Positions 44,695 to 53,286 of a stretch of DNA of 64,000 nt are shown in pieces; positions within the stretch are counted from its first letter, which is position 1; each line of letters begins with the position of its first letter. The position numbers were made by a program, and so were the translations under genes. Under the pieces are notes generated by a model that was not told the origin of the DNA, did no database searches, and saw only the letters and a program-made list of their open reading frames with translations. This DNA comes from Saprospiraceae bacterium (GTDB taxonomy: Bacteria > Bacteroidota > Bacteroidia > Chitinophagales > Saprospiraceae): positions 1 through 64,000 of the forward strand of contig JAKVCV010000011.1 in assembly GCA_022448945.1 (NCBI GenBank), in the 5' to 3' direction.

Positions 44695-45426
44695 ATGAAA
44701 ACGATAGAGATAAATACTGCTCAGAAAGTAACGATTCAATATGAATTAGCAACTTTAGGCAATCGATTTTTAGCATATTTTATAGATATTCTAATCATGG
44801 GTGGGACTATTACATTTTTATCTGTACTAGGTAGTGCTGCTTTATCTTCAAAAGACAATTTCCTTGTCTTTCTTTATCTCGTTGTGGGTCCCATTGTTAT
44901 ATTTTACACACTTCTTTCTGAAATTCTAATGCATGGGCAATCTCTGGGGAAAAAATCCATCGGACTCAAGGTAGTAAAGCTCAATGGAGACGCACCTACA
45001 AATCATGATTACATGATGCGTTGGATGTTTCGTTTTATCGATATTTTTATGTCTTTAGGGTCTGTAGGCTCTCTTCTGATAAATGCCTCCCCAAACAGCC
45101 AAAGGCTAGGGGGATTGCTCTCAGGGACAACTGTTATCAGAACTACATCCCAAAGAACTTTCAGCCTTAATGACATTCTTAAAATTTCTACATTAGATAC
45201 TTATCAGCCAACCTTTCCTGAAATAAAAAAATTCAATGAAAAGGACATGTTGTTTATCAAAAAAGTGCTCGAACGTGAGCGCCGTTTCCCAAACCCTGCA
45301 CACAAAAAAGCAGTAGGTGCATTAGCAGATCACGTCGCAAATCAACTAAAAATTCAAAACATACCTAATGATCGCAGTAAGTTTTTACGCACCCTTATAA
45401 ATGATTACATTGTCCTAACAAGATAA
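44695..45426 (+). CDS. RDD family membrane protein
   Basis: The protein has 243 residues. The RDD motif appears as LGNRFLAYFIDILIMGG (Arg, Asp in helix 1). Two more helices and the GQSLGKKSIGLKVVKLNG turn follow, as in the family, then MRWMFRFIDI. A soluble C-terminal third is extra. It is divergent from the SpoIIM gene, a usual arrangement for this Bacteroidota module. Confidence 0.88.
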   Translation: MKTIEINTAQKVTIQYELATLGNRFLAYFIDILIMGGTITFLSVLGSAALSSKDNFLVFLYLVVGPIVIFYTLLSEILMHGQSLGKKSIGLKVVKLNGDAPTNHDYMMRWMFRFIDIFMSLGSVGSLLINASPNSQRLGGLLSGTTVIRTTSQRTFSLNDILKISTLDTYQPTFPEIKKFNEKDMLFIKKVLERERRFPNPAHKKAVGALADHVANQLKIQNIPNDRSKFLRTLINDYIVLTR

Positions 45427-45473
45427 TTACCTTTTTTAAAGGCCATATTGATATAAAATTCATAATTACAACG

Positions 45474-46631
45474 ATGATTCATCCATCAAAAAATATTTTA
45501 TTAACAGGAGGGCGCGCTCCGGCTACGCTACATTTAGCACGACTATTAAAACAACAAGGTCACATAGTTTGCATAGCAGATACATTTGCCAAAAACTTAA
45601 CGAGTGTTTCAAAATACATAGATAAGAGTTTTATTACCTCTGCACCAAGGCAATCTCCAAAAGACTTTGTAGCTGAAATGGTAAATATTATTACTGATAA
45701 TGAAATAGATGTATTAATTCCTACCTGTGAAGAAACCTTTCATATATCTCTGCATAAGTCTAATTTCGAAAAACATTGCATGGTTTTTACTTCGGATATT
45801 TTGCTAATGCAAGAACTACATGACAAATGGAAATTCAACCAGTTACTTAAAAAATTGTCATTGCCTTTTCCGAAATCATTTTTTACGAAAACTCAAGGAG
45901 AATTATCCTCAGCTATTAAAGAGGTAAACCAATTTGTAGCCAAACCTGTATACAGTCGATTTGCTGATAAAGTTATCATCAATGATAAAAATGAATTGGG
46001 AAATGTCAACATCAATGAAAAAGAACCGTGGGTGATTCAGGAATATATTGAAGGTTCTCATTTCTGTTCTTTCAGTATTGCTAACAAAGGACACCTTTCC
46101 GCCCATGCAGTATATCCTGTTGGATACAGAGTACAAAATGGTGCTGCAATTTATTTTGAAGCTATAGAAGTCCCAGAAATAGAAGATATTGTTACGACAA
46201 TTGCCAAAGACAAAAAATATACCGGGTTTTTATCTTTTGATTTTATTAAAAAGGAAACTGATGGCAAATTTTATACTATTGAATGCAACCCCAGAGTGAC
46301 AAGTGGAATCCACCTTTTTGACTCAAAAGATGCCTTTATGCCATTCAAAAAATCCTTAAGCATTTGTTACCCAAAAGAGAACAATCGAATGATGTTAACC
46401 GTAGCTATGGTCTTATATAACTTAGCCGAAACACGTTCATGGACAAGTTTCTGGGATTTAATTCAATGCATGCTAAAGGCAGAAGATGTGGTTTTTAGCT
46501 GGCGAGACCTTAAACCGTTTTTTGCACAGTTTATGTCGATCTTTTATTTTTATAAATTAGCAAAAGAAAACAATATTTCAATATTAGAAGCAACAACGCA
46601 TCACATTGAATGGAATGGTGATATGTTGTAA
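45474..46631 (+). CDS. ATP-grasp ligase
   Basis: The protein has 385 residues. A Rossmann-like N-domain (NILLTGGRAPATLHLARLL) is followed by an ATP-grasp fold with a nucleotide loop (FVAKPVYSRFADKV), VIQEYIEGSHFCSF and the metal-binding end FYTIECNPRVTSGIH. Such enzymes join a carboxylate, activated by ATP, to an amine or other nucleophile. The substrate is unknown. It lies 29 bp upstream of an epimerase/reductase gene and begins the run of biosynthesis-type genes; it could be co-transcribed with the RDD gene 47 bp upstream. Confidence 0.82.
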   Translation: MIHPSKNILLTGGRAPATLHLARLLKQQGHIVCIADTFAKNLTSVSKYIDKSFITSAPRQSPKDFVAEMVNIITDNEIDVLIPTCEETFHISLHKSNFEKHCMVFTSDILLMQELHDKWKFNQLLKKLSLPFPKSFFTKTQGELSSAIKEVNQFVAKPVYSRFADKVIINDKNELGNVNINEKEPWVIQEYIEGSHFCSFSIANKGHLSAHAVYPVGYRVQNGAAIYFEAIEVPEIEDIVTTIAKDKKYTGFLSFDFIKKETDGKFYTIECNPRVTSGIHLFDSKDAFMPFKKSLSICYPKENNRMMLTVAMVLYNLAETRSWTSFWDLIQCMLKAEDVVFSWRDLKPFFAQFMSIFYFYKLAKENNISILEATTHHIEWNGDML

Positions 46632-46660
46632 CATTAAGTTGATTCTAAGACCGATAGACA

Positions 46661-47677
46661 ATGACAATAAACCCTACATTTAAAAACATTCTTGTAACTG
46701 GAGCGACAGGTTTTCTAGGAAGTCGATTAGTAGAACGTCTTTCACAACTAAACCAGTACAATATATTTGCTACGGGAAGAGACATCAAAAAAGGAAGTAA
46801 ATTAGAAAACTATCGTTCCGTGAATTTTATTCAAGCAGACCTTACGAATAAAAAACTAGTAAATACCCTTTGCAAAAACATGGACATAGTAGTTCATTCT
46901 GCAGCGCTTTCATCGCTATGGGGAACGTATGATGCTTTTTACGATGCAAATATACTTTCCACTCAAAACATTGTTAATGGTTGCATGGACAACAAGGTCA
47001 AAAGATTAGTTCATATTTCTACACCAAGCATTTATCCACAAAAACTAGGTCAAGACATATTTGACATAAAAGAGAACTTTATCCCTAAAACTTTTATAAG
47101 TACATATGCTCAAACAAAATATGATGCAGAAAAAATAATTAACAAAGCGCATAATAATGGACTTGAAACAATAATTCTGAGACCCCGGGGTATTTACGGT
47201 AGGGGTGACTTTACGATTATGCCACGCATATTACGTACATATCATGCGGGAAAACTTAAAATAATTGGAGATGGAGAAAATATTGTAGATGTAACGAATG
47301 TATCTAATGTCGTGAATGCTATTTTACTTAGTATAAAAGCAAATCATCTGGCACTAGGCAATGCTTTTAATATAACAGATGGCAAACCAGTTAAGATGTG
47401 GGAGGTTGTGCGAATGGTCCTTGATGAACTAAATTTAAAATGGGAGCCTACTAAAATCCCTTACAAAGTTGTTGATAAAATAGCATGGGGCTTAGAAAAA
47501 TGGGCATTACTTACCAATTCAAAACAGGAACCTATGTTAACTCGGGCATCTGTTAGTATTGCTGCATGCTCTACTACTCTGAATATAGACAAAGCAAAAA
47601 AACTTCTTGGATATAAACCGGAATACACTCTTGAAATGGGGATTGAAGAATTTTCGAATTGGTGGTTAGAACAATAA
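46661..47677 (+). CDS. NAD-dependent epimerase/reductase (extended SDR)
   Basis: The protein has 338 residues. The NAD-binding GATGFLG (Gly14 to Gly20) and the catalytic YxxxK (STYAQTKYD) are clear. The middle resembles 3-beta-hydroxysteroid dehydrogenase-like SDRs (RPRGIYGRGDFTIMPRIL), as in OleD-type reductases of beta-keto acids. It may reduce a ketone made by the ketoacyl synthase III downstream, but that is inferred. It is followed by a 319-bp gap. Confidence 0.85.
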   Translation: MTINPTFKNILVTGATGFLGSRLVERLSQLNQYNIFATGRDIKKGSKLENYRSVNFIQADLTNKKLVNTLCKNMDIVVHSAALSSLWGTYDAFYDANILSTQNIVNGCMDNKVKRLVHISTPSIYPQKLGQDIFDIKENFIPKTFISTYAQTKYDAEKIINKAHNNGLETIILRPRGIYGRGDFTIMPRILRTYHAGKLKIIGDGENIVDVTNVSNVVNAILLSIKANHLALGNAFNITDGKPVKMWEVVRMVLDELNLKWEPTKIPYKVVDKIAWGLEKWALLTNSKQEPMLTRASVSIAACSTTLNIDKAKKLLGYKPEYTLEMGIEEFSNWWLEQ

Positions 47678-47996
47678 TAACAATATTCCAATATAAAGAA
47701 TTTGTCTATATTTTAGACATAAGACATGTACTAAATAAAAGATAAACCACTCTAAAGCAATGGTTTGCGTTTTGAGCATTTTTTTTGTTGTACACATTAG
47801 TATTAATGCGCGTTTTTGTGTTATTTAATTGAGAATTACCACAAAGACCAAATTAAGTTAATTATAGGAATGTCATAAATTGATGTCGACCAAGAATAAG
47901 ATAATATAACTATGCTTAAATAATAAAATTGTAGGCATAGATCTGGCATGAACTTTGTTAATTCCCCAATAATTTTAAAACCATTAAGATCTCATA
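47678..47996 (+). other. Non-coding leader before the MBL-fold gene
   Basis: This 319-bp gap contains two inverted repeats: TGTCTA / TAGACA at 47703-47719 (5-nt loop) and AAACCA / TGGTTT at 47744-47766 (11-nt loop), the latter followed by a T-run at about 47779-47787. This could be a weak terminator for the SDR gene and an independent promoter region for the downstream four genes. No carrier-protein ORF was found. Confidence 0.45.
47703..47719 (+). repeat. Inverted repeat TGTCTA-N5-TAGACA
   Basis: A perfect 6-bp stem follows the SDR stop codon at 47677 by 25 bp. It could be an operator or the first part of a terminator. No partner elsewhere in the window was noted. Confidence 0.35.
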
Positions 47997-48836
47997 ATGA
48001 ACCTTAAAATTCTTGACACTGGTTATTGTCAGAGCCTTGAAAAAGTAGCCATTAAAGGAGGGCGTTTAAAAAAAATTCAATTTCCATCAATTGTAGCTTT
48101 AATTAAACACCCAAAACATGGCCTAATATTATTCGATACCGGATACAGCAACAGACTTTTTGAGGCTAGCAAGAAATTTCCTGCACGTTTATATTCTATT
48201 ATTTTACCTCCTGTCCAAAGTAGTATATATTCAGTTGTTGATCAGCTAAATGATATAGGTATAAAAGCTGAAGAAGTTCAGTACATTATTGTCTCCCACT
48301 TTCATGCTGACCATACCTGTGGACTTAAAGATTTTCCCAATGCTCGTCTTATATGTTCTTCTTCCGCTTATAACCATCTTTTATCCCTTAAAAATAGTTT
48401 TGAAGCCGTTAAAGAAGCAATTCTACTAGATTTAATTCCTGACGATCTGGAAAATAAAGTATGGCTGATTGACGCAGATGATTCAATTAAACAAACACAA
48501 GATCAACATCTTGGAGTATTATATGATATATTTGGTGACAACAGTATACTTATCAATGATCTACCCGGCCATTTAACGGGCCAAATAGGTGCAATTATAA
48601 ATACCAATAATGAACAATATTTCCTTATTGCTGATGCGTGTTGGCTAAGTGATTCATTTAAAAAGAATATTTTACCTTCATCTTTAGCGAAATTGATTAT
48701 TTCTGATTTTGATGCATTTAAACAAACATTAAACAAGATTCATCTATTTCATAAAGCCAATGTATTAACTCATATCATACCAACACATTGCCGTAAAACA
48801 GTAAAACACCATGTTCTTGAAACTCAAAATCTTTAA
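47997..48836 (+). CDS. MBL-fold metallo-hydrolase
   Basis: The protein has 279 residues. The metallo-beta-lactamase signature is SHFHADHTCGL (His101, His103, Asp105, His106), with a later DLPGH histidine, LIADACW aspartate and the IIPTHC histidine, so two metals should be bound. Family members include lactonases and thioesterases. It overlaps the following adenylating enzyme by 26 bp, suggesting coupled translation and a joint function, perhaps hydrolysis of a thioester or lactone. Confidence 0.88.
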   Translation: MNLKILDTGYCQSLEKVAIKGGRLKKIQFPSIVALIKHPKHGLILFDTGYSNRLFEASKKFPARLYSIILPPVQSSIYSVVDQLNDIGIKAEEVQYIIVSHFHADHTCGLKDFPNARLICSSSAYNHLLSLKNSFEAVKEAILLDLIPDDLENKVWLIDADDSIKQTQDQHLGVLYDIFGDNSILINDLPGHLTGQIGAIINTNNEQYFLIADACWLSDSFKKNILPSSLAKLIISDFDAFKQTLNKIHLFHKANVLTHIIPTHCRKTVKHHVLETQNL

Positions 48837-50109
48837 ATATTTGCTGATCTATAGGTTTCGCAAAGAATTTAAAACGCGCGAAGCTTTAGAGACATGGCAG
48901 AATAAAAAAATAAAAAAGCATTTAAAAAGAGTTGTAAAAAAATCATCTTTTTACTCAGAACGCCTGCAAAAATATAATAGCTGGACTGCCTTCCCTATTA
49001 TCAATAAAAAAATTTTCATGGACAATTTTGATGCCATCAATACTCATGGGATAGAAAAAGAAGCAGCTTTTGAAGTCGCAATAAAAGGAGAACAAACGCG
49101 CAACTTTTCTCCAATGATAAAAAATATCACTATTGGCCTATCTTCCGGAACTTCTGGAAACAGGGGAATTTTTATGGTATCCATAAAAGAACGTGCTCAA
49201 TGGGTAGCATATGTAGTTCTTAATCTTCTTGGATTTAAATTTAAAAAAAGAAAAATTGCATTTTTTTTGCGAGCGAATAGCAATTTGTACACTTCTGCTA
49301 AATCTCGATTAATTGATTTTAATTTCTTTGATTTGAAGAAACCATTAAAGGAAAACATCTTATCTCTTAACAAATATAATCCTGATATATTAATCGCACA
49401 GCCTTCCATGTTGCGTGAAATTGCAAAAGCCCAACAAGAAAAGACCATTAATATCAAGCCTTCAAAGATCATATCTGTAGCAGAGGTGTTGGAGCCAATT
49501 GACCATTCTCTACTTAAAAGAACATTTAATCAAGTAATTCACCAAGCCTACCAGTGTACTGAGGGCTTTTTGGCAAAAACATGCAGTTATGGAACACTGC
49601 ATTTCAATGAAGACTTAGTTAAAATAGAGCAACATTTTTTAGATTCCAATAAAGACCGATACCACCCCATTATAACTGATTTCACAAGAAGTTCACAGCC
49701 AATATTTCGTTATGAATTAAATGATATCATTATCGACAAACAAGCCCCTTGTCCGTGTGGGTCTATTTTCAAGGCTATTGATCATATCGAAGGGCGTTCA
49801 GATGACACTTTTGTTTTAGAATCACGAGATGGAAAATCTGTGAACATTTTCCCAGATTTCATTCGAAGGACCATTATAATAACATGTAAAAACATTAAAG
49901 AATATATAGTTGAACAAAGTGGAGATAAGGAAATCACCATTTATCTGGACTCTCAGAATTTTGAATCTGCTAAAACATTACTTGAAGAAGCATTCATCAA
50001 TTTACTTAAGCACTATAACGTTGATGATTGTAGCCTAATCTTCAAGCCAGAAGTTCCTATTTGTAATACTTCAAAATTAAGAAGGGTAAAACGAAATATC
50101 AAACAATGA
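48811..50109 (+). CDS. Adenylate-forming enzyme, CoF/F390-synthetase-like
   Basis: The protein has 432 residues. It shows the adenylation loop SSGTSGNRG (111-119) and the plan of phenylacetate-CoA-ligase/F390-synthetase-type enzymes (YQCTEGFLAKTCSYG, FRYELNDIII, CPCGS with a cysteine pair, then a C-terminal small domain). These activate a carboxylic acid as acyl-AMP. The substrate and acceptor are unknown. It overlaps the hydrolase upstream by 26 bp and the next gene by 4 bp (ATGA). Confidence 0.8.
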   Translation: MFLKLKIFKYLLIYRFRKEFKTREALETWQNKKIKKHLKRVVKKSSFYSERLQKYNSWTAFPIINKKIFMDNFDAINTHGIEKEAAFEVAIKGEQTRNFSPMIKNITIGLSSGTSGNRGIFMVSIKERAQWVAYVVLNLLGFKFKKRKIAFFLRANSNLYTSAKSRLIDFNFFDLKKPLKENILSLNKYNPDILIAQPSMLREIAKAQQEKTINIKPSKIISVAEVLEPIDHSLLKRTFNQVIHQAYQCTEGFLAKTCSYGTLHFNEDLVKIEQHFLDSNKDRYHPIITDFTRSSQPIFRYELNDIIIDKQAPCPCGSIFKAIDHIEGRSDDTFVLESRDGKSVNIFPDFIRRTIIITCKNIKEYIVEQSGDKEITIYLDSQNFESAKTLLEEAFINLLKHYNVDDCSLIFKPEVPICNTSKLRRVKRNIKQ

Positions 50110-51254
50110 GGTTATATGATCAACATAACATACAATCGTTAAAAATTGTCGCCGATTCAAAAAACAGTCGAGACATTCAAATATGGCTTTCCTTAATGAA
50201 AAATGGGATTAACCATTATATAGAAAATGCTGATTGTGAATTAAAAGTTATTATCGACGAATCCGAAGACTTATATTTACCTGTAGTAATTCCTAATAGC
50301 AAATTCGATAATTCATATGTATGTTCACCCTATAGCCAATATATTGATTATGGATATCGTGAAATTGATATAGAGCTATCTACAAAACCTTTAATAAATA
50401 AGATTAGCAAAAAACTTTTAAGAACATTTGAAAAATGCACTTCCCGCAATTCCTTTGATAAAGTAATATTTGTAAATAATTGGTTTGCCTCTACGAATTT
50501 ATATCCGGAAATTACCTCTAAACAACTAAAATCGATAACAAATATCTTACTAGACAAATATCCTGACCGTGCAATAGTATATCGTTCTATTGGCGAAGTA
50601 TTAAACAAAGAGTTAATGGCTGACCTTGAAAGAATAGGATATGAACAAATAATGAGTAGGCAGATTTACATTGTTGACCCTTCTAAAGAAATATATAGAA
50701 AGAAAAAAGCCTTTAAAGAAGATCTTCGTTTACAAAGAAACCGAAAAGAATACAAATGGATTGAGTATGAAAATTTCAATGAAATGCTATTTGAAAAAGT
50801 CAAAAAATTTTACGACGATTTATATTTAAATAAATATTCCACAATCAACCCTCAGTTCACAAAAGCATTTTTTAAAGATTCCATTAACAATAAATGGCTA
50901 AGATATTTTTTCCTAGAAAAAGAAGATAAAATTTACGCTTGTTTAGGATATTACCATCGCAATGGAATAATGACTACCCCTATTATAGGGTACGACTTTA
51001 ACCTGGATCAAAAAGTAGGGCTATATCGGTTGATTTCTTTACATATCACTCAGGAAGGGATAAAAAACAATCTAATTGTACATTGCAGTTCGGGAGCATC
51101 CACATTTAAAAAAGTGCGCGGCGCTGAAGCAAGTTTAGAATATAATTTAGTTTACACAAAACATTTATCAAAACTTAGAAAGTTCCCCTGGCAAACACTA
51201 AAGGGTTTAACAAAATATATTGCTTCTCCAATAATTAAAAAATTTGAATTATGA
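50106..51254 (+). CDS. GNAT/FemAB-like acyltransferase
   Basis: The protein has 382 residues. The C-terminal half shows a GNAT-type pattern (KIYACLGYYHRNGIMTTPII, GLYRLISLHI, SSGASTFKKVRGAE), as in the FemAB-like acyltransferases that use a large acyl donor. The N-terminal half is less clear. It probably moves an acyl group onto an amine. ATGA overlaps with the genes on both sides show it is part of one translational unit. Confidence 0.65.
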   Translation: MRLYDQHNIQSLKIVADSKNSRDIQIWLSLMKNGINHYIENADCELKVIIDESEDLYLPVVIPNSKFDNSYVCSPYSQYIDYGYREIDIELSTKPLINKISKKLLRTFEKCTSRNSFDKVIFVNNWFASTNLYPEITSKQLKSITNILLDKYPDRAIVYRSIGEVLNKELMADLERIGYEQIMSRQIYIVDPSKEIYRKKKAFKEDLRLQRNRKEYKWIEYENFNEMLFEKVKKFYDDLYLNKYSTINPQFTKAFFKDSINNKWLRYFFLEKEDKIYACLGYYHRNGIMTTPIIGYDFNLDQKVGLYRLISLHITQEGIKNNLIVHCSSGASTFKKVRGAEASLEYNLVYTKHLSKLRKFPWQTLKGLTKYIASPIIKKFEL

Positions 51255-52261
51255 AACCTAATCTTAAAATCAGAAAGCCTCTCAAAATTATAAGTACCGG
51301 GAAATATGTTCCTGAACATAAGGTTAGCTCAGAAGAATTAGAACAACAATTCGGAATAGAACCAGGATGGACATTTCGTTCAAATGGAATAATGTCACGT
51401 CATAGAGCTACTGAAGAAGAAACTGGTGCATCCATGGGCGCTAATGCACTTAAAGATGCCTTGAACCGTGCTAATATGAAATTTGAAGATCTTGACCTAC
51501 TTATTGAGGCTTCTGCATCTTTTGACTATCCTATTCCGCATAATGCTTGCCTTATTCCAATAGAATTCGGACTGTTGGATGCCGGTGTTCCCTGTTGGGA
51601 TGTAGATTCTACATGCCTTGGATTTGTTACTGCTTTAGACATGGTAAGTTATTTATTAGATGGGAGTAGGTATTCAAAAATTGCGATTGTAAATAGTGAA
51701 TTAACATTCCCGAACCTCAATCCTGAAGACCCTAAAACTGTTACTTTATTTGGAGATGCTGCAACTGCGGTAATTGTTTCATTGCCTGAAGAAGGTGAAC
51801 ATTCAGGTATTATTACTGCAGATCTTGAAACTTATTCAGGAGGTGCCCATTTTACAAGAATAAAAGCTGGCGGAAATGTTCATCATAACAAATCCAGACC
51901 TAGTGACGCTGACCTTTCTTTCGAAATGAAAGGGAAAGAAGTCATGAGAATGGCAATGATGAAAGTTGGTCCATTTGCAAAAAAACTATTAGATCCTATA
52001 GGGGTAACAATGGCAGATATTCACTGTATTATCCCTCACCAAGCAAGTAAAAGAGCTTTGGACTTTGCCCAAAAAGCATTTAACTGGACAAATGAGCAGA
52101 TGGTTTCAATAATCGCAGATTATGGAAACTGTATCTCTGCTTCAATACCGCTAGCATTACATGAAGCCATTGAATCAGGTAAATTAAAACGTGGTGAAGA
52201 TTGTTTGCTTTTTGGCACTGCTGCAGGATTATCAGTTGGTGGGCTTTATTTTATTTATTAA
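51251..52261 (+). CDS. Beta-ketoacyl synthase III (FabH-like)
   Basis: The protein has 336 residues in the thiolase superfamily. The catalytic triad is present: Cys122 (VDSTCLGFVTALDM), His263 (IIPHQASKR) and Asn293 (YGNCISASIPLAL). It would condense an acyl-CoA or acyl-ACP with a malonyl unit or a second acyl chain. It is not beside fatty-acid genes, which points to a specialised role. It is the last gene of the run and ends in 4 bp of overlap with the convergent oxidoreductase. Confidence 0.9.
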   Translation: MKPNLKIRKPLKIISTGKYVPEHKVSSEELEQQFGIEPGWTFRSNGIMSRHRATEEETGASMGANALKDALNRANMKFEDLDLLIEASASFDYPIPHNACLIPIEFGLLDAGVPCWDVDSTCLGFVTALDMVSYLLDGSRYSKIAIVNSELTFPNLNPEDPKTVTLFGDAATAVIVSLPEEGEHSGIITADLETYSGGAHFTRIKAGGNVHHNKSRPSDADLSFEMKGKEVMRMAMMKVGPFAKKLLDPIGVTMADIHCIIPHQASKRALDFAQKAFNWTNEQMVSIIADYGNCISASIPLALHEAIESGKLKRGEDCLLFGTAAGLSVGGLYFIY

Positions 52262-53286
52262 TCCCAATATACTGCAACTTTCCCTATCGAATGCCTGTTG
52301 CCAAGAAAATCATGTGCCTTAGCCAATTCATTTATAGAGAATACCCCTCCAACAGTTGGTTTTAATTTTCCATTAATTACCAATTGTGAAACTTCCTGCA
52401 TGCAAAACTTAAGCGCTTCAGGTCGGTTATCTGCAACTTGCAACATGTTGACTCCTGTAACACCCTGAGATTTTAATAACAACTCTACAGTTGGAATAAA
52501 TCCAAAACCAAAAACCAATTTCAGATCACCTAAAATTCCTTTTCTTTTACCCGAACGGACAGCTGCACCATAACATATTATTCTACCTGTTCCTTCTGAT
52601 AACAAGCGTCGTGTCTTTTTTACAGACCGACCTCCTACACTATCAAATGCTACGTCTATGCAATTTTTTCCCGATTTTCTAATAATGTACTCCTCAAAAT
52701 CTGAAGTCATATAATTTATCGGATGGTCGACACCAAGACCTCTCAAATAATCTAATTTTTTTTCAGAACTTGCAGTACCATAGACTATACAACCACTATT
52801 TTTGGCTAATTGAACCAAAGCAGTTCCAACACCGCCTGCTGCTGCATGAATTAGCACATGATCACCTTTATGGAGCTGAGTAGTATAACATGCACAATAA
52901 TAGGCCGTTGAATACTGAGTTGCTATAGCAGTAGCTAAACAATAATCCATGTCTTCAGATATCAAAACTGTAGCACGTGTATCTGCTACTGCATATTCTG
53001 CATAACCTCCAAAACGCGTTAAAGAAACTACTCTTTGGCCAACCTTAAAATCTACAACGTCCTTCCCTACTTCATGAACACGCCCAACTACTTCATATCC
53101 AATAATTGCAGGTAGAGGTGGACAATCATTATACAATCCCTGTCGAGCCATTACATCTGCAAAATTAAGCCCAAATGCTTCAGCCTTAACACATATTTCA
53201 TGATCCTTAGGTTTTGGAATTTCACGCTCCTGAATTTCAAATGCCTGATCTGCTTTTCCGAATTTAGTAAGAACTACGGCTCTCAT
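52258..53286 (-). CDS. Zinc-type quinone oxidoreductase (MDR family, VAT1-like)
   Basis: The protein has 342 residues. The NADPH-binding motif is HAAAGGVGTALVQLAK, with the GYEVVGRVHEVG N-domain and GLNFADVMARQG. No catalytic zinc cysteines are visible, so it resembles quinone oxidoreductase and VAT1-like members. It is convergent with the ketoacyl synthase gene, overlapping it by 4 bp, so it is not in that operon. It lies 15 bp after a zinc-ribbon gene. Confidence 0.88.
   Translation of the reverse strand: MRAVVLTKFGKADQAFEIQEREIPKPKDHEICVKAEAFGLNFADVMARQGLYNDCPPLPAIIGYEVVGRVHEVGKDVVDFKVGQRVVSLTRFGGYAEYAVADTRATVLISEDMDYCLATAIATQYSTAYYCACYTTQLHKGDHVLIHAAAGGVGTALVQLAKNSGCIVYGTASSEKKLDYLRGLGVDHPINYMTSDFEEYIIRKSGKNCIDVAFDSVGGRSVKKTRRLLSEGTGRIICYGAAVRSGKRKGILGDLKLVFGFGFIPTVELLLKSQGVTGVNMLQVADNRPEALKFCMQEVSQLVINGKLKPTVGGVFSINELAKAHDFLGNRHSIGKVAVYWD

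Follow-up and report, generated by a model that had tools for sequence, protein, structure and literature searches.

A conserved four-gene core with exchangeable tailoring genes in a Saprospiraceae genome may make a specialized lipid

The conserved heart of a six-gene cassette in a 64,000-nucleotide stretch of Saprospiraceae DNA (hereafter the window, meaning that whole stretch) is a set of four genes. These encode a KAS III, an SDR, a metallo-beta-lactamase-fold hydrolase (MBL), and an adenylate-forming ligase of the TIGR02304 family. The original prediction, which treated all six genes as one biosynthetic unit, did not single out this core. Judging from sequence comparisons and predicted protein structures, our best explanation, to which we assign a probability of about one half, is that the core and its exchangeable tailoring enzymes make a lipoamino-acid-like specialized lipid in the window. 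Counted in its favor are the retention of the core as a unit, the conserved catalytic residues, the co-occurrence of GNAT and ATP-grasp genes, the lipid-type tailoring genes near the core, and the folds of the protein models. Counted against it are the lack of a carrier gene, a FabH residue (Arg249) that is not kept, matches of the GNAT model to enzymes that use acyl-CoA, and the split by phylum of the tailoring modules. Among the open-access papers listed in our literature searches, we found no description of the gene set.

Layout and genomic site of the cassette

The cassette occupies positions 45427 to 52257 of the plus strand, between an RDD gene that ends at position 45426 and a quinone-oxidoreductase gene whose low end is at position 52258 and whose stop overlaps that of the KAS III gene. 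All six plus-strand open reading frames (ORFs) originally proposed are intact, and their coordinates, given below, were confirmed. Because gene starts are those of the longest ORFs, gene lengths are upper limits. The overlaps of 26, 4, and 4 bp claimed for the last four genes follow from these coordinates. The 319-bp, ORF-free gap between the SDR and MBL genes is looser than the description of the cassette as compact implies. As predicted, no carrier-protein gene was recognized by eye among ORFs of at least 45 amino acids that overlap positions 45427 to 52261. A Bacteroidota-type promoter pattern has eight matches in the window compared to 6.0 expected, none of them on the plus strand inside or just before the cassette. 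The GC content of the cassette (0.31 to 0.37) is like that of its surroundings (0.29 to 0.36), so base composition says nothing about recent transfer, and we dropped this line of argument.

In seven of the eight other genomes of the genus, the genes flanking the cassette adjoin each other. Their spacing of 11 to 1454 bp is too small for the 6.8-kb cassette, and in one of the seven genomes (G001) an assembly gap falls between the two genes. The cassette site in the sister species is empty or otherwise occupied, and the cassette comes and goes as a whole.

These observations bear on whether the genes serve a standard route to fatty acids or to envelope components (lipid A type), as might be supposed from the occurrence of the KAS III and SDR families in primary lipid metabolism. 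Near-absence among the relatives searched speaks against such a role: among 60 related genomes, the cassette's own included, TIGR02304 scores over its cut-off in two and the GNAT is present in one. The same genome encodes its next most similar KAS III on contig 1 (33 to 34% identity) and another on contig 25 (26% identity). We dropped the housekeeping fatty-acid pathway because the genome has a separate FabH-like gene and the sister species lack the cassette; the latter absence already refutes this reading, which we rate as extremely improbable, in line with the original prediction.

The conserved core and its enzymes

The four core genes occur together in 95 of the 110 loci examined, and loci with the core come from at least six phylum-level groups. 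When only the six families of the cassette are counted, the SDR, MBL, and ligase genes are consecutive in that order in 94 of these 95 loci, the exception being L076, whose MBL sequence is divided between two ORFs. Since other families are ignored in this count, it includes two loci (L040 and L057) that have a short SDR between the MBL and the ligase. This linkage is far beyond chance. The genes are clearly conserved together, which upholds the earlier view of a coherent, apparently uncharacterized biosynthetic unit.

The 110 loci comprise the window, L021 to L107, and L112 to L133, with L030 and L128 coming from one genome. Loci L001 to L020 (short, about 5 kb or less) and L108 to L111 and L134 (duplicates, controls, or stretches of the window's own genome) were left out, and L135 to L154 are outside this count. 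The first set of loci consists of the best 80 of 552 confirmed relatives, and the sample therefore favors close relatives of the window's ligase. Among the 15 loci in which the core is incomplete or absent, four lie at contig ends (L050, L074, L077, and L087), one carries an SDR that was lost in the overlap filter (L059), one has no KAS within reach (L039), and one has no SDR and a split MBL (L128). The rest have no core at all (L023, L062, L067, L117, L118, L119, L132, and L133). An alignment in which one row was wrong (an SDR of L039) contributed to none of the counts.

In even samples of three phyla, TIGR02304 is spread patchily (6 of 395, 7 of 398, and 9 of 398 genomes), and all four core genes accompany a strong match in 19 of 22 genomes. 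One match in these samples, in G996, is fragmented. The core is also found in Paenibacillus, Brevibacillus, various Bacteroidota, and a Fusobacterium. Paenibacillus polymyxa (L092) combines it with ATP-grasp and a short SDR, and Crocinitomix catalasitica (L045) has the sulfotransferase type. A seven-gene version is carried by 672 of 5,426 complete Escherichia coli genomes (about one in eight). It lies at the narI-rttR site and consists of KAS, SDR, MBL, TIGR02304, PAP2, FA_hydroxylase, and FA_desaturase genes; the cluster is absent at this site in K-12 MG1655.

The KAS III gene (positions 51251 to 52261, plus strand) matches ACP_syn_III_C, and its product scores 323 bits with PRK07204 (cut-off 402). 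The full catalytic triad that had been proposed is borne out as Cys122-His263-Asn293, which is conserved in all 80 aligned KAS sequences. Its closest solved chains among the matches listed are CorB (229.5 bits) and MxnB (223.9 bits), with the best FabH at 153.9 bits, and none of the 38 matches listed at E <= 1e-20 is a chain named OleA. The position of OleA E117 and PpyS E105, fixed by alignment with CorB and MxnB (V94) and by E. coli FabH F87, holds Ile in 56, Leu in 23, and Val in 1 of the 80 sequences. The FabH F87' tunnel position, which has a role in acyl chain length, is Ile, Leu, or Val in all 80, and these residues could leave room for a longer acyl chain. The equivalent of the ACP-docking Arg249 of FabH is Met in 46 of the 80 sequences and Arg in the window. 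According to two papers, CorB and MxnB have a Cys-His-Asn triad and a hydrophobic residue in place of the Glu (PMC4578411, PMC5724707), with V94 at the PpyS E105 position (PMC4578411).

The extended SDR, a reductase encoded at positions 46661 to 47677 (plus strand), matches 3Beta_HSD. Its best NCBIfam matches are two OleD models (191 and 190 bits versus a cut-off of 580), and its residues Y149 and K153 are present in 80 of 80 sequences. The MBL (positions 47997 to 48836, plus strand) matches Lactamase_B, scores 89 bits with the AttM model (cut-off 390) and 50 with AiiA (cut-off 375), and retains the residues H101, H103, D105, H106, H192, D213, and H264 in 83 of 83 sequences. The ligase (positions 48811 to 50109, plus strand) scores 485.3 bits with TIGR02304, "F390 synthetase-related," compared to a cut-off of 251.9, and its motifs are conserved across 89 sequences. 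It has no Pfam match at E 0.01, and thus none to AMP-binding (PF00501). The enzyme is PaaK/F390-like, with the phenylacetate-CoA ligase 4r1l as its closest solved chain; the name "coenzyme F390 synthetase" appears in PMC5467263 and PMC9823363.

A parallel with OleA, OleD, and OleC had been drawn for the window. If it applied, KAS III would join two acyl chains head to head, the SDR would yield a 2-alkyl-3-hydroxy acid, and the ligase would form a beta-lactone that the MBL may open, leading to a mycolate-like acid, a beta-lactone, or a hydrocarbon. The parallel draws on the rank of the OleD models among SDR matches and on the adenylate-forming nature of the ligase, but it is not supported. The catalytic Glu is absent from all 80 KAS sequences, OleC belongs to the AMP-binding family that the ligase does not match, and the OleD scores are about one-third of the cut-off. 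OleB is missing, as had been noted, with no alpha/beta-hydrolase among the window's six genes and the one such family probed lying within 7 kb of only 2 of the 95 core loci. Membership in the OleABCD group was dropped on these grounds, and we judge a related head-to-head chemistry to be improbable.

Another route would have KAS III join an acyl chain to a beta-ketoacyl thioester, as in CorB and MxnB; the resulting pyrone- or diketide-type product would then pass to the SDR and MBL for processing. The scores of these two chains, well above that of the best FabH, and their shared lack of the Glu are consistent with this chemistry. However, the nearest solved structure does not establish function, and CorB and MxnB occur in modular polyketide synthase clusters, whereas the cassette encodes neither a polyketide synthase nor a carrier protein. 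We consider this route improbable as well.

Exchangeable tailoring genes

The ATP-grasp and GNAT genes are an optional, exchangeable pair, a feature that the original prediction missed. An ATP-grasp gene is present in 62 of the 95 core-complete loci and a GNAT gene in 42, every one of which also has the ATP-grasp gene (42 of 42). Another 19 core-complete loci carry a sulfotransferase (8), DUF3419 (3), GT21 and/or GT1 glycosyltransferases (4), or PAP2 (4), and none of the 19 has an ATP-grasp gene (Fisher 1.8e-11, phylogeny ignored). Both ATP-grasp and all of these alternatives are missing from 14 core-complete loci, which counts against our best explanation. The exclusivity is largely split by phylum. 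Within Bacteroidota (one Balneola included), a hand count gave 4 loci with ATP-grasp and GNAT and 11 with sulfotransferase or DUF3419, without overlap, numbers that are too few for a strong case.

A tailoring gene was counted if it lay within 7 kb, inside the operon or not; the sulfotransferase of L028 is on the opposite strand. Directly downstream of the sulfotransferase in L098 are genes of the PAPS-supply type, encoding a PAPS_reduct-domain protein and a GTPase/APS-kinase fusion. Relatives of both were found by BLAST near the sulfotransferase of L084, on the opposite strand. A CysN-like match in L106 occurs without a sulfotransferase and is counted against our best explanation. Genes of lipid type near the core include FA_hydroxylase (8 of 95 loci), FA_desaturase (6 of 95), and Rieske (at least 9 of 95). 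Because the overlap filter can hide genes, the numbers for GNAT and Rieske are lower bounds: one long ORF labeled Rieske in L124 probably covers a GNAT, and an annotated Rieske gene in L027 was left uncounted.

In several genomes, genes for FA_hydroxylase, FA_desaturase, GT21, PAP2, and sulfotransferase turn up repeatedly within or next to the operon, and this weighs against a small, non-lipid product. Such a product might be an acyl-amide or peptide-like signal or antibiotic built on a short or aromatic acyl starter, with the lipid-type genes elsewhere being unrelated neighbors. The patchy spread of the family fits specialized metabolism of this sort, as do the phenylacetate-CoA ligases that are the nearest solved relatives of the ligase, yet we regard this explanation as unlikely.

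The optional ATP-grasp ligase (positions 45474 to 46631, plus strand) matches PF02655, and its best NCBIfam model is PRK06849 (365.5 bits versus a cut-off of 406). Its predicted structure (pLDDT 92.9) has the fold of PylC, PurK, and L-amino-acid ligases, with PylC at rank 2 and RizA at rank 9 in Foldseek and Z scores of 24.1 to PylC and 26.1 to PurK in VIA-align.

The second add-on (positions 50106 to 51254, plus strand) is a 382-residue double-GNAT protein that matches no Pfam or NCBIfam family at E 0.01 and has no sequence relative in the PDB (best E 0.12, an unrelated chain). Its earlier description as GNAT/FemAB-like is supported by a confident model (pLDDT 93.7) with the FemX, MprF, and Sbb17 fold. 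In VIA-align, these proteins match at Z 14.4 to 17.4 over 240 to 287 residues with 8 to 12% identity, and their rows differ by up to 3 Z, with no one family standing out. The shared fold is no proof of aminoacyl-tRNA use, because the best Foldseek match has a TM-score of only 0.49 and GNATs that use acyl-CoA match too (VipF, Z 14.4, rmsd 7.4; MshD and N-myristoyltransferases, Z 11.8 to 13.5).

Proposed pathway and comparison with known systems

Returning to the lipid reading, we propose that the TIGR02304 ligase would convert a long-chain acid to an acyl-AMP or acyl-CoA, and that KAS III would join the activated acyl group to a malonyl (or beta-ketoacyl) thioester. The beta-ketone would then be reduced to a hydroxyl by the SDR, and the MBL may free the product from its thioester or open a lactone, so that the scaffold made by the core would be a long chain bearing both a hydroxyl and a carboxyl. 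In the window, the ATP-grasp enzyme might attach an amino acid (or another amine) to the scaffold carboxyl, and the FemX/MprF-fold enzyme might transfer another aminoacyl group, with aminoacyl-tRNA as the probable donor. The enzymes of other lineages could instead modify the hydroxyl of the scaffold by sulfation, 3-amino-3-carboxypropylation, glycosylation, or addition of a phospho-head. Judging from the sequences and models, the cassette product is probably a long-chain lipid whose polar end can be exchanged. We more tentatively suggest, as a possibility short of even odds, that a lipid class found across phyla is made by a core for condensation, reduction, release, and activation, with amino-acid, sulfate, aminocarboxypropyl, sugar, or phospho heads according to lineage.

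If this is correct, the cassettes specify a modular lipid family whose layout is comparable to that of sphingolipids, although no gene of the cluster would perform a serine palmitoyltransferase-type step. They would represent an overlooked class of bacterial lipids or lipid-like signals, present in many kinds of bacteria and in approximately 12% of complete E. coli genomes. Because E. coli has its own version and K-12 lacks the cluster at that site, the idea can be tested directly by standard methods. The exchange of head-group modules on one core would also give lipid engineers a natural toolbox and help to direct genome mining.

Several known systems share parts of this arrangement. OleABCD has in common with the cassette a thiolase-fold condensing enzyme, an OleD-like SDR, and an adenylate-forming ligase, but the cassette lacks the OleA-type Glu and OleB, its ligase is TIGR02304/PaaK-like, and it has an MBL instead. 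CorB and MxnB have the same Cys-His-Asn triad and hydrophobic residue as the window's KAS III; that enzyme is accompanied by the SDR, MBL, and ligase, and the cassette has no polyketide synthase or carrier protein. Compared to AHL lactonases, the MBL has the metal-ligand motif but scores below the AttM and AiiA cut-offs. PylC and L-amino-acid ligases share the ATP-grasp fold over most of the chain, whereas the window's enzyme falls in its own subfamily (PRK06849-like, below cut-off) and also matches PurK and others. The aminoacyl-tRNA-dependent aminoacyltransferases FemX, MprF, and Sbb17 share the double-GNAT fold predicted for the window's GNAT, which lacks the flippase domain of MprF. Finally, the E. 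coli narI-rttR cluster shares the four-gene core and the SDR-MBL-ligase order with the window, but in place of ATP-grasp and GNAT it carries PAP2 and two lipid-modifying enzymes.

Gene content and insertion site of the cassette

The source genome comprises 4.35 Mb in 73 contigs, and the window lies on contig 3. An ORF read-out of positions 45474-52261 revealed six genes, all on the plus strand, and bears out both the coordinates and the overlaps in the original prediction. Five are named by Pfam and NCBIfam: an ATP-grasp enzyme, an extended SDR, an MBL-fold protein, a TIGR02304 "F390 synthetase-related" ligase, and a KAS III. The remaining GNAT gene (50106-51254, plus strand) has no match to either collection at E 0.01. 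As originally predicted, visual inspection of the ORFs of at least 45 amino acids in the cassette region revealed no carrier-protein gene. A 319-bp AT-rich gap that lacks an ORF (47678-47996) separates the SDR and MBL genes and may hold a promoter, whereas these two genes overlap or almost touch in many other clusters.

The cassette is flanked on the left by an RDD-domain gene (44695-45426) and on the right by a quinone-oxidoreductase gene (52258-53286, minus strand). These flanking genes adjoin in seven of the eight other genomes from the genus, and the eighth (G002) has them on separate contigs. The matched gene ends in the seven genomes are spaced by 11, 39, 409, 538, 1437, 1437, and 1454 bp, and therefore leave too little room for the 6.8-kb cassette. 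We inspected the interval sequences of six of these genomes: two are short, one carries a 105-aa ORF, and another (G001, 538 bp) contains an assembly gap of Ns and is the least certain case. The other two, from sister species (L152 and L153), carry a 419-440-aa ORF of another kind at the cassette site, which indicates that the interval accepts different genes.

Among 60 genomes of relatives, including the source genome itself, the GNAT is found in one and a TIGR02304 protein scoring over the cut-off in two. Because these genes are so rare and the flanking genes adjoin in relatives, the six genes were most likely gained or lost together. Neither a transposase nor a target duplication was seen at the cassette ends. 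A concatenated tree tentatively places the window's core (KAS III, SDR, MBL, and ligase) on a deep branch within the Bacteroidota clade, a position that would fit either an old divergence with repeated loss or transfer within the phylum.

Distribution of the four-gene core

Relatives of the ligase were collected using one genome per species, yielding at least 592 pattern matches, of which at least 552 were confirmed. The best 80 of these 552 were compared, and seven further loci came from plasmid records. Neighborhoods were first probed with the proteins of the window itself and then with the full set of families. KAS, SDR, and MBL genes are located within 7 kb of the ligase in 95 of 110 loci, so the genes are conserved together across genomes, as the original prediction required; the other 15 loci lack the full core. 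As judged from the titles and annotation of the records, core-complete loci span Bacteroidota, Bacillota, Pseudomonadota, a Fusobacterium, a Bdellovibrionales genome, and a Gastranaerophilales genome. When the six cassette families are considered, the order SDR, MBL, ligase is kept in 94 of the 95, a count that disregards other families, such as the short SDR between MBL and ligase in L040 and L057. The KAS gene is placed either before this trio (the Bacillota and Pseudomonadota type) or after it (mostly the Bacteroidota type), and the full order in the window (ATP-grasp, SDR, MBL, ligase, GNAT, KAS) was observed once among the loci compared.

Since the best 80 loci were picked by similarity, we also searched evenly drawn genomes, which contain the center genomes themselves, with the TIGR02304 profile at E <= 1e-60. 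Matches were found in 6 of 395 genomes from the window's phylum (the source genome counted), 7 of 398 from the phylum of Succinimonas (L105), and 9 of 398 from that of Brevibacillus (L030). The core accompanies the strong ligase match in 6/6, 7/7, and 6/9 cases, respectively (19/22 in total). In the Brevibacillus phylum sample, G1148 and G1191 have no core around the ligase; the ligase match in G996 is fragmented, and its neighborhood falls outside the core-complete count. Its distribution is patchy in each of the three samples, yet the cassette is usually whole where a strong ligase match exists.

Solo TIGR02304-family ligases that lack the core (252-445 bits; L117, L118, and L119 from Bacteroidota, plus L132 and L133) reveal that this family has other uses. 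Brevibacillus reuszeri NIT02 (G452, contig 1) carries two cluster copies approximately 25 kb apart (L030 and L128), the second of which lacks the SDR, has its MBL split into two ORFs, and looks decayed. One Bacteroidota version (L113:11120-15468, minus strand) has two large proteins of 656 and 806 aa (longest ORF), with no Pfam match, directly upstream of the SDR. A transposon mutant of a kiwifruit Pseudomonas in a gene named "coenzyme F390 synthetase" appears in a published mutant table (PMC9823363).

The Escherichia coli version comprises KAS, SDR, MBL, ligase, PAP2, FA_hydroxylase, and FA_desaturase genes between narI and tyrosine tRNA genes. A near-identity search located it in 672 of 5,426 complete E. 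coli genomes, and in 671 of these the match spans 80% or more of the query. It is absent from K-12 MG1655, where narI is followed by ychS, rttR, and tRNAs. The E. coli order also occurs, with two desaturases, in three other genomes sampled from its phylum (L120-L122). Two plasmid records are probably misfiled or misassembled: "plasmid unnamed1" of E. coli KE48 (L024, NZ_CP141085.1) carries an ordinary chromosomal stretch from narGHJI to galU, and a Fusobacterium "plasmid" (L025, NZ_CP084075.1) is 2.1 Mb, the size of a chromosome.

Add-on modules

ATP-grasp genes are present in 62 of the 95 core-complete loci and GNAT genes in 42, always with an ATP-grasp; 20 loci have the ATP-grasp without the GNAT, and 33 have neither. 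Another enzyme class is found within 7 kb of 19 cores (sulfotransferase, 8; DUF3419, 3; GT21 and/or GT1, 4; PAP2, 4), and none of these 19 loci has an ATP-grasp (Fisher 1.8e-11, kinship ignored). Mutual exclusivity is only suggested by this pattern, because the test ignores relatedness and the split largely tracks phylum.

Several observations count in favor of a real linkage between modules and core. Within the operon of L098, the sulfotransferase is followed by two PAPS-supply proteins, one with a PAPS_reduct domain and the other a GTPase/APS-kinase fusion; relatives of both are encoded nearby on the other strand in L084. Several tailoring genes are located inside the operon, and differing modules occur on close branches of the core tree, with ATP-grasp and GNAT loci nested among sulfotransferase loci in Bacteroidota. 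Against this linkage, L106 has a CysN-like match but no sulfotransferase, L028 encodes its sulfotransferase on the opposite strand, and the modules are all missing from 14 core-complete loci.

Redox enzymes also recur among the 95 loci (FA_hydroxylase, 8; FA_desaturase, 6; Rieske, at least 9; short SDR, 26). An overlapping ATP-grasp and GNAT pair of this family is present on a Deinococcus sp. KNUC1210 plasmid (L135:6796-9044), and annotations up to 8 kb away show no core. The pair therefore also occurs alone, and in Deinococcus it may act on a different scaffold.

Enzyme relationships and a proposed pathway

An AlphaFold2 model of the GNAT (mean pLDDT 93.7) most closely matches A-PGS, the MprF of Pseudomonas aeruginosa, in Foldseek (E 3.9e-8, TM 0.49). 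VIA-align scores are highest for Sbb17 (Z 17.4, rmsd 3.2 across 256 residues), FemX (Z 16.7), and MprF (up to 15.6), and next lower for the acyl-CoA-using GNATs VipF (Z 14.4, rmsd 7.4) and MshD (Z 13.5). The ATP-grasp model (mean pLDDT 92.9) resembles PurK (Z 26.1) and PylC (Z 24.1) in fold; PylC ranks second and the L-amino-acid ligase RizA ninth in Foldseek, which also matched PurK, carbamoyl-phosphate synthase, and biotin carboxylase.

Catalytic residues of the core are strongly conserved. The predicted Cys-His-Asn triad of KAS III is intact (C122, H263, and N293 in 80/80 aligned sequences), as are SDR residues Y149 and K153 (80/80) and MBL residues H101, H103, D105, H106, H192, D213, and H264 (83/83). 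Ligase motifs are conserved, with the C-terminal K422 in 88 of 89 sequences. We propose that the PaaK-like ligase would activate an acid, KAS III would carry out condensation, the SDR would perform reduction, and the MBL would release the product. In the window version, the ATP-grasp ligase and the FemX/MprF-fold transferase would add amino acids. A hydroxylated long chain is the favored scaffold by analogy, because most of the alternative enzyme classes (sulfotransferase, DUF3419/BtaA-type, glycosyltransferase, and PAP2_3) have members that act on lipid hydroxyls. Among the open-access matches listed, we found no description of this gene set, and the phrase "F390 synthetase-related" is absent from the six papers found by one such search. 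The class of product has a fair chance of being new.

A housekeeping fatty-acid path was ruled out for the cassette. The original prediction had also drawn a parallel with OleA/OleD/OleC, which did not hold, as none of the four defining Ole features examined (the catalytic Glu, an OleD reductase, an OleC-type PF00501 synthetase, and OleB) was found. The top-scoring models for the SDR are those of OleD, at 191 bits versus a cut-off of 580. OleA and PpyS have a Glu that reaches into the active site of the partner subunit, where MxnB and CorB have Val (PMC4578411). Cassette KAS proteins have Ile, Leu, or Val at this position (80/80). It equates to F87' of FabH, where a smaller side chain presumably accommodates a longer acyl chain. 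The FabH ACP-docking Arg is Met in 46 of 80 KAS sequences and Arg in that of the window. The metal site of the MBL is like that of AHL lactonases, although its score is far under the cut-offs for that family, and 82 of 83 sequences carry Trp at what we take to be the catalytic Tyr position of AiiA. Among solved chains, those nearest to the KAS III are CorB (229.5 bits) and MxnB (223.9), followed by a FabH (153.9). In its mode of action, we infer, the cassette would resemble an acyl-assembly line of KAS, SDR, and ligase to which an aminoacyl head is added.
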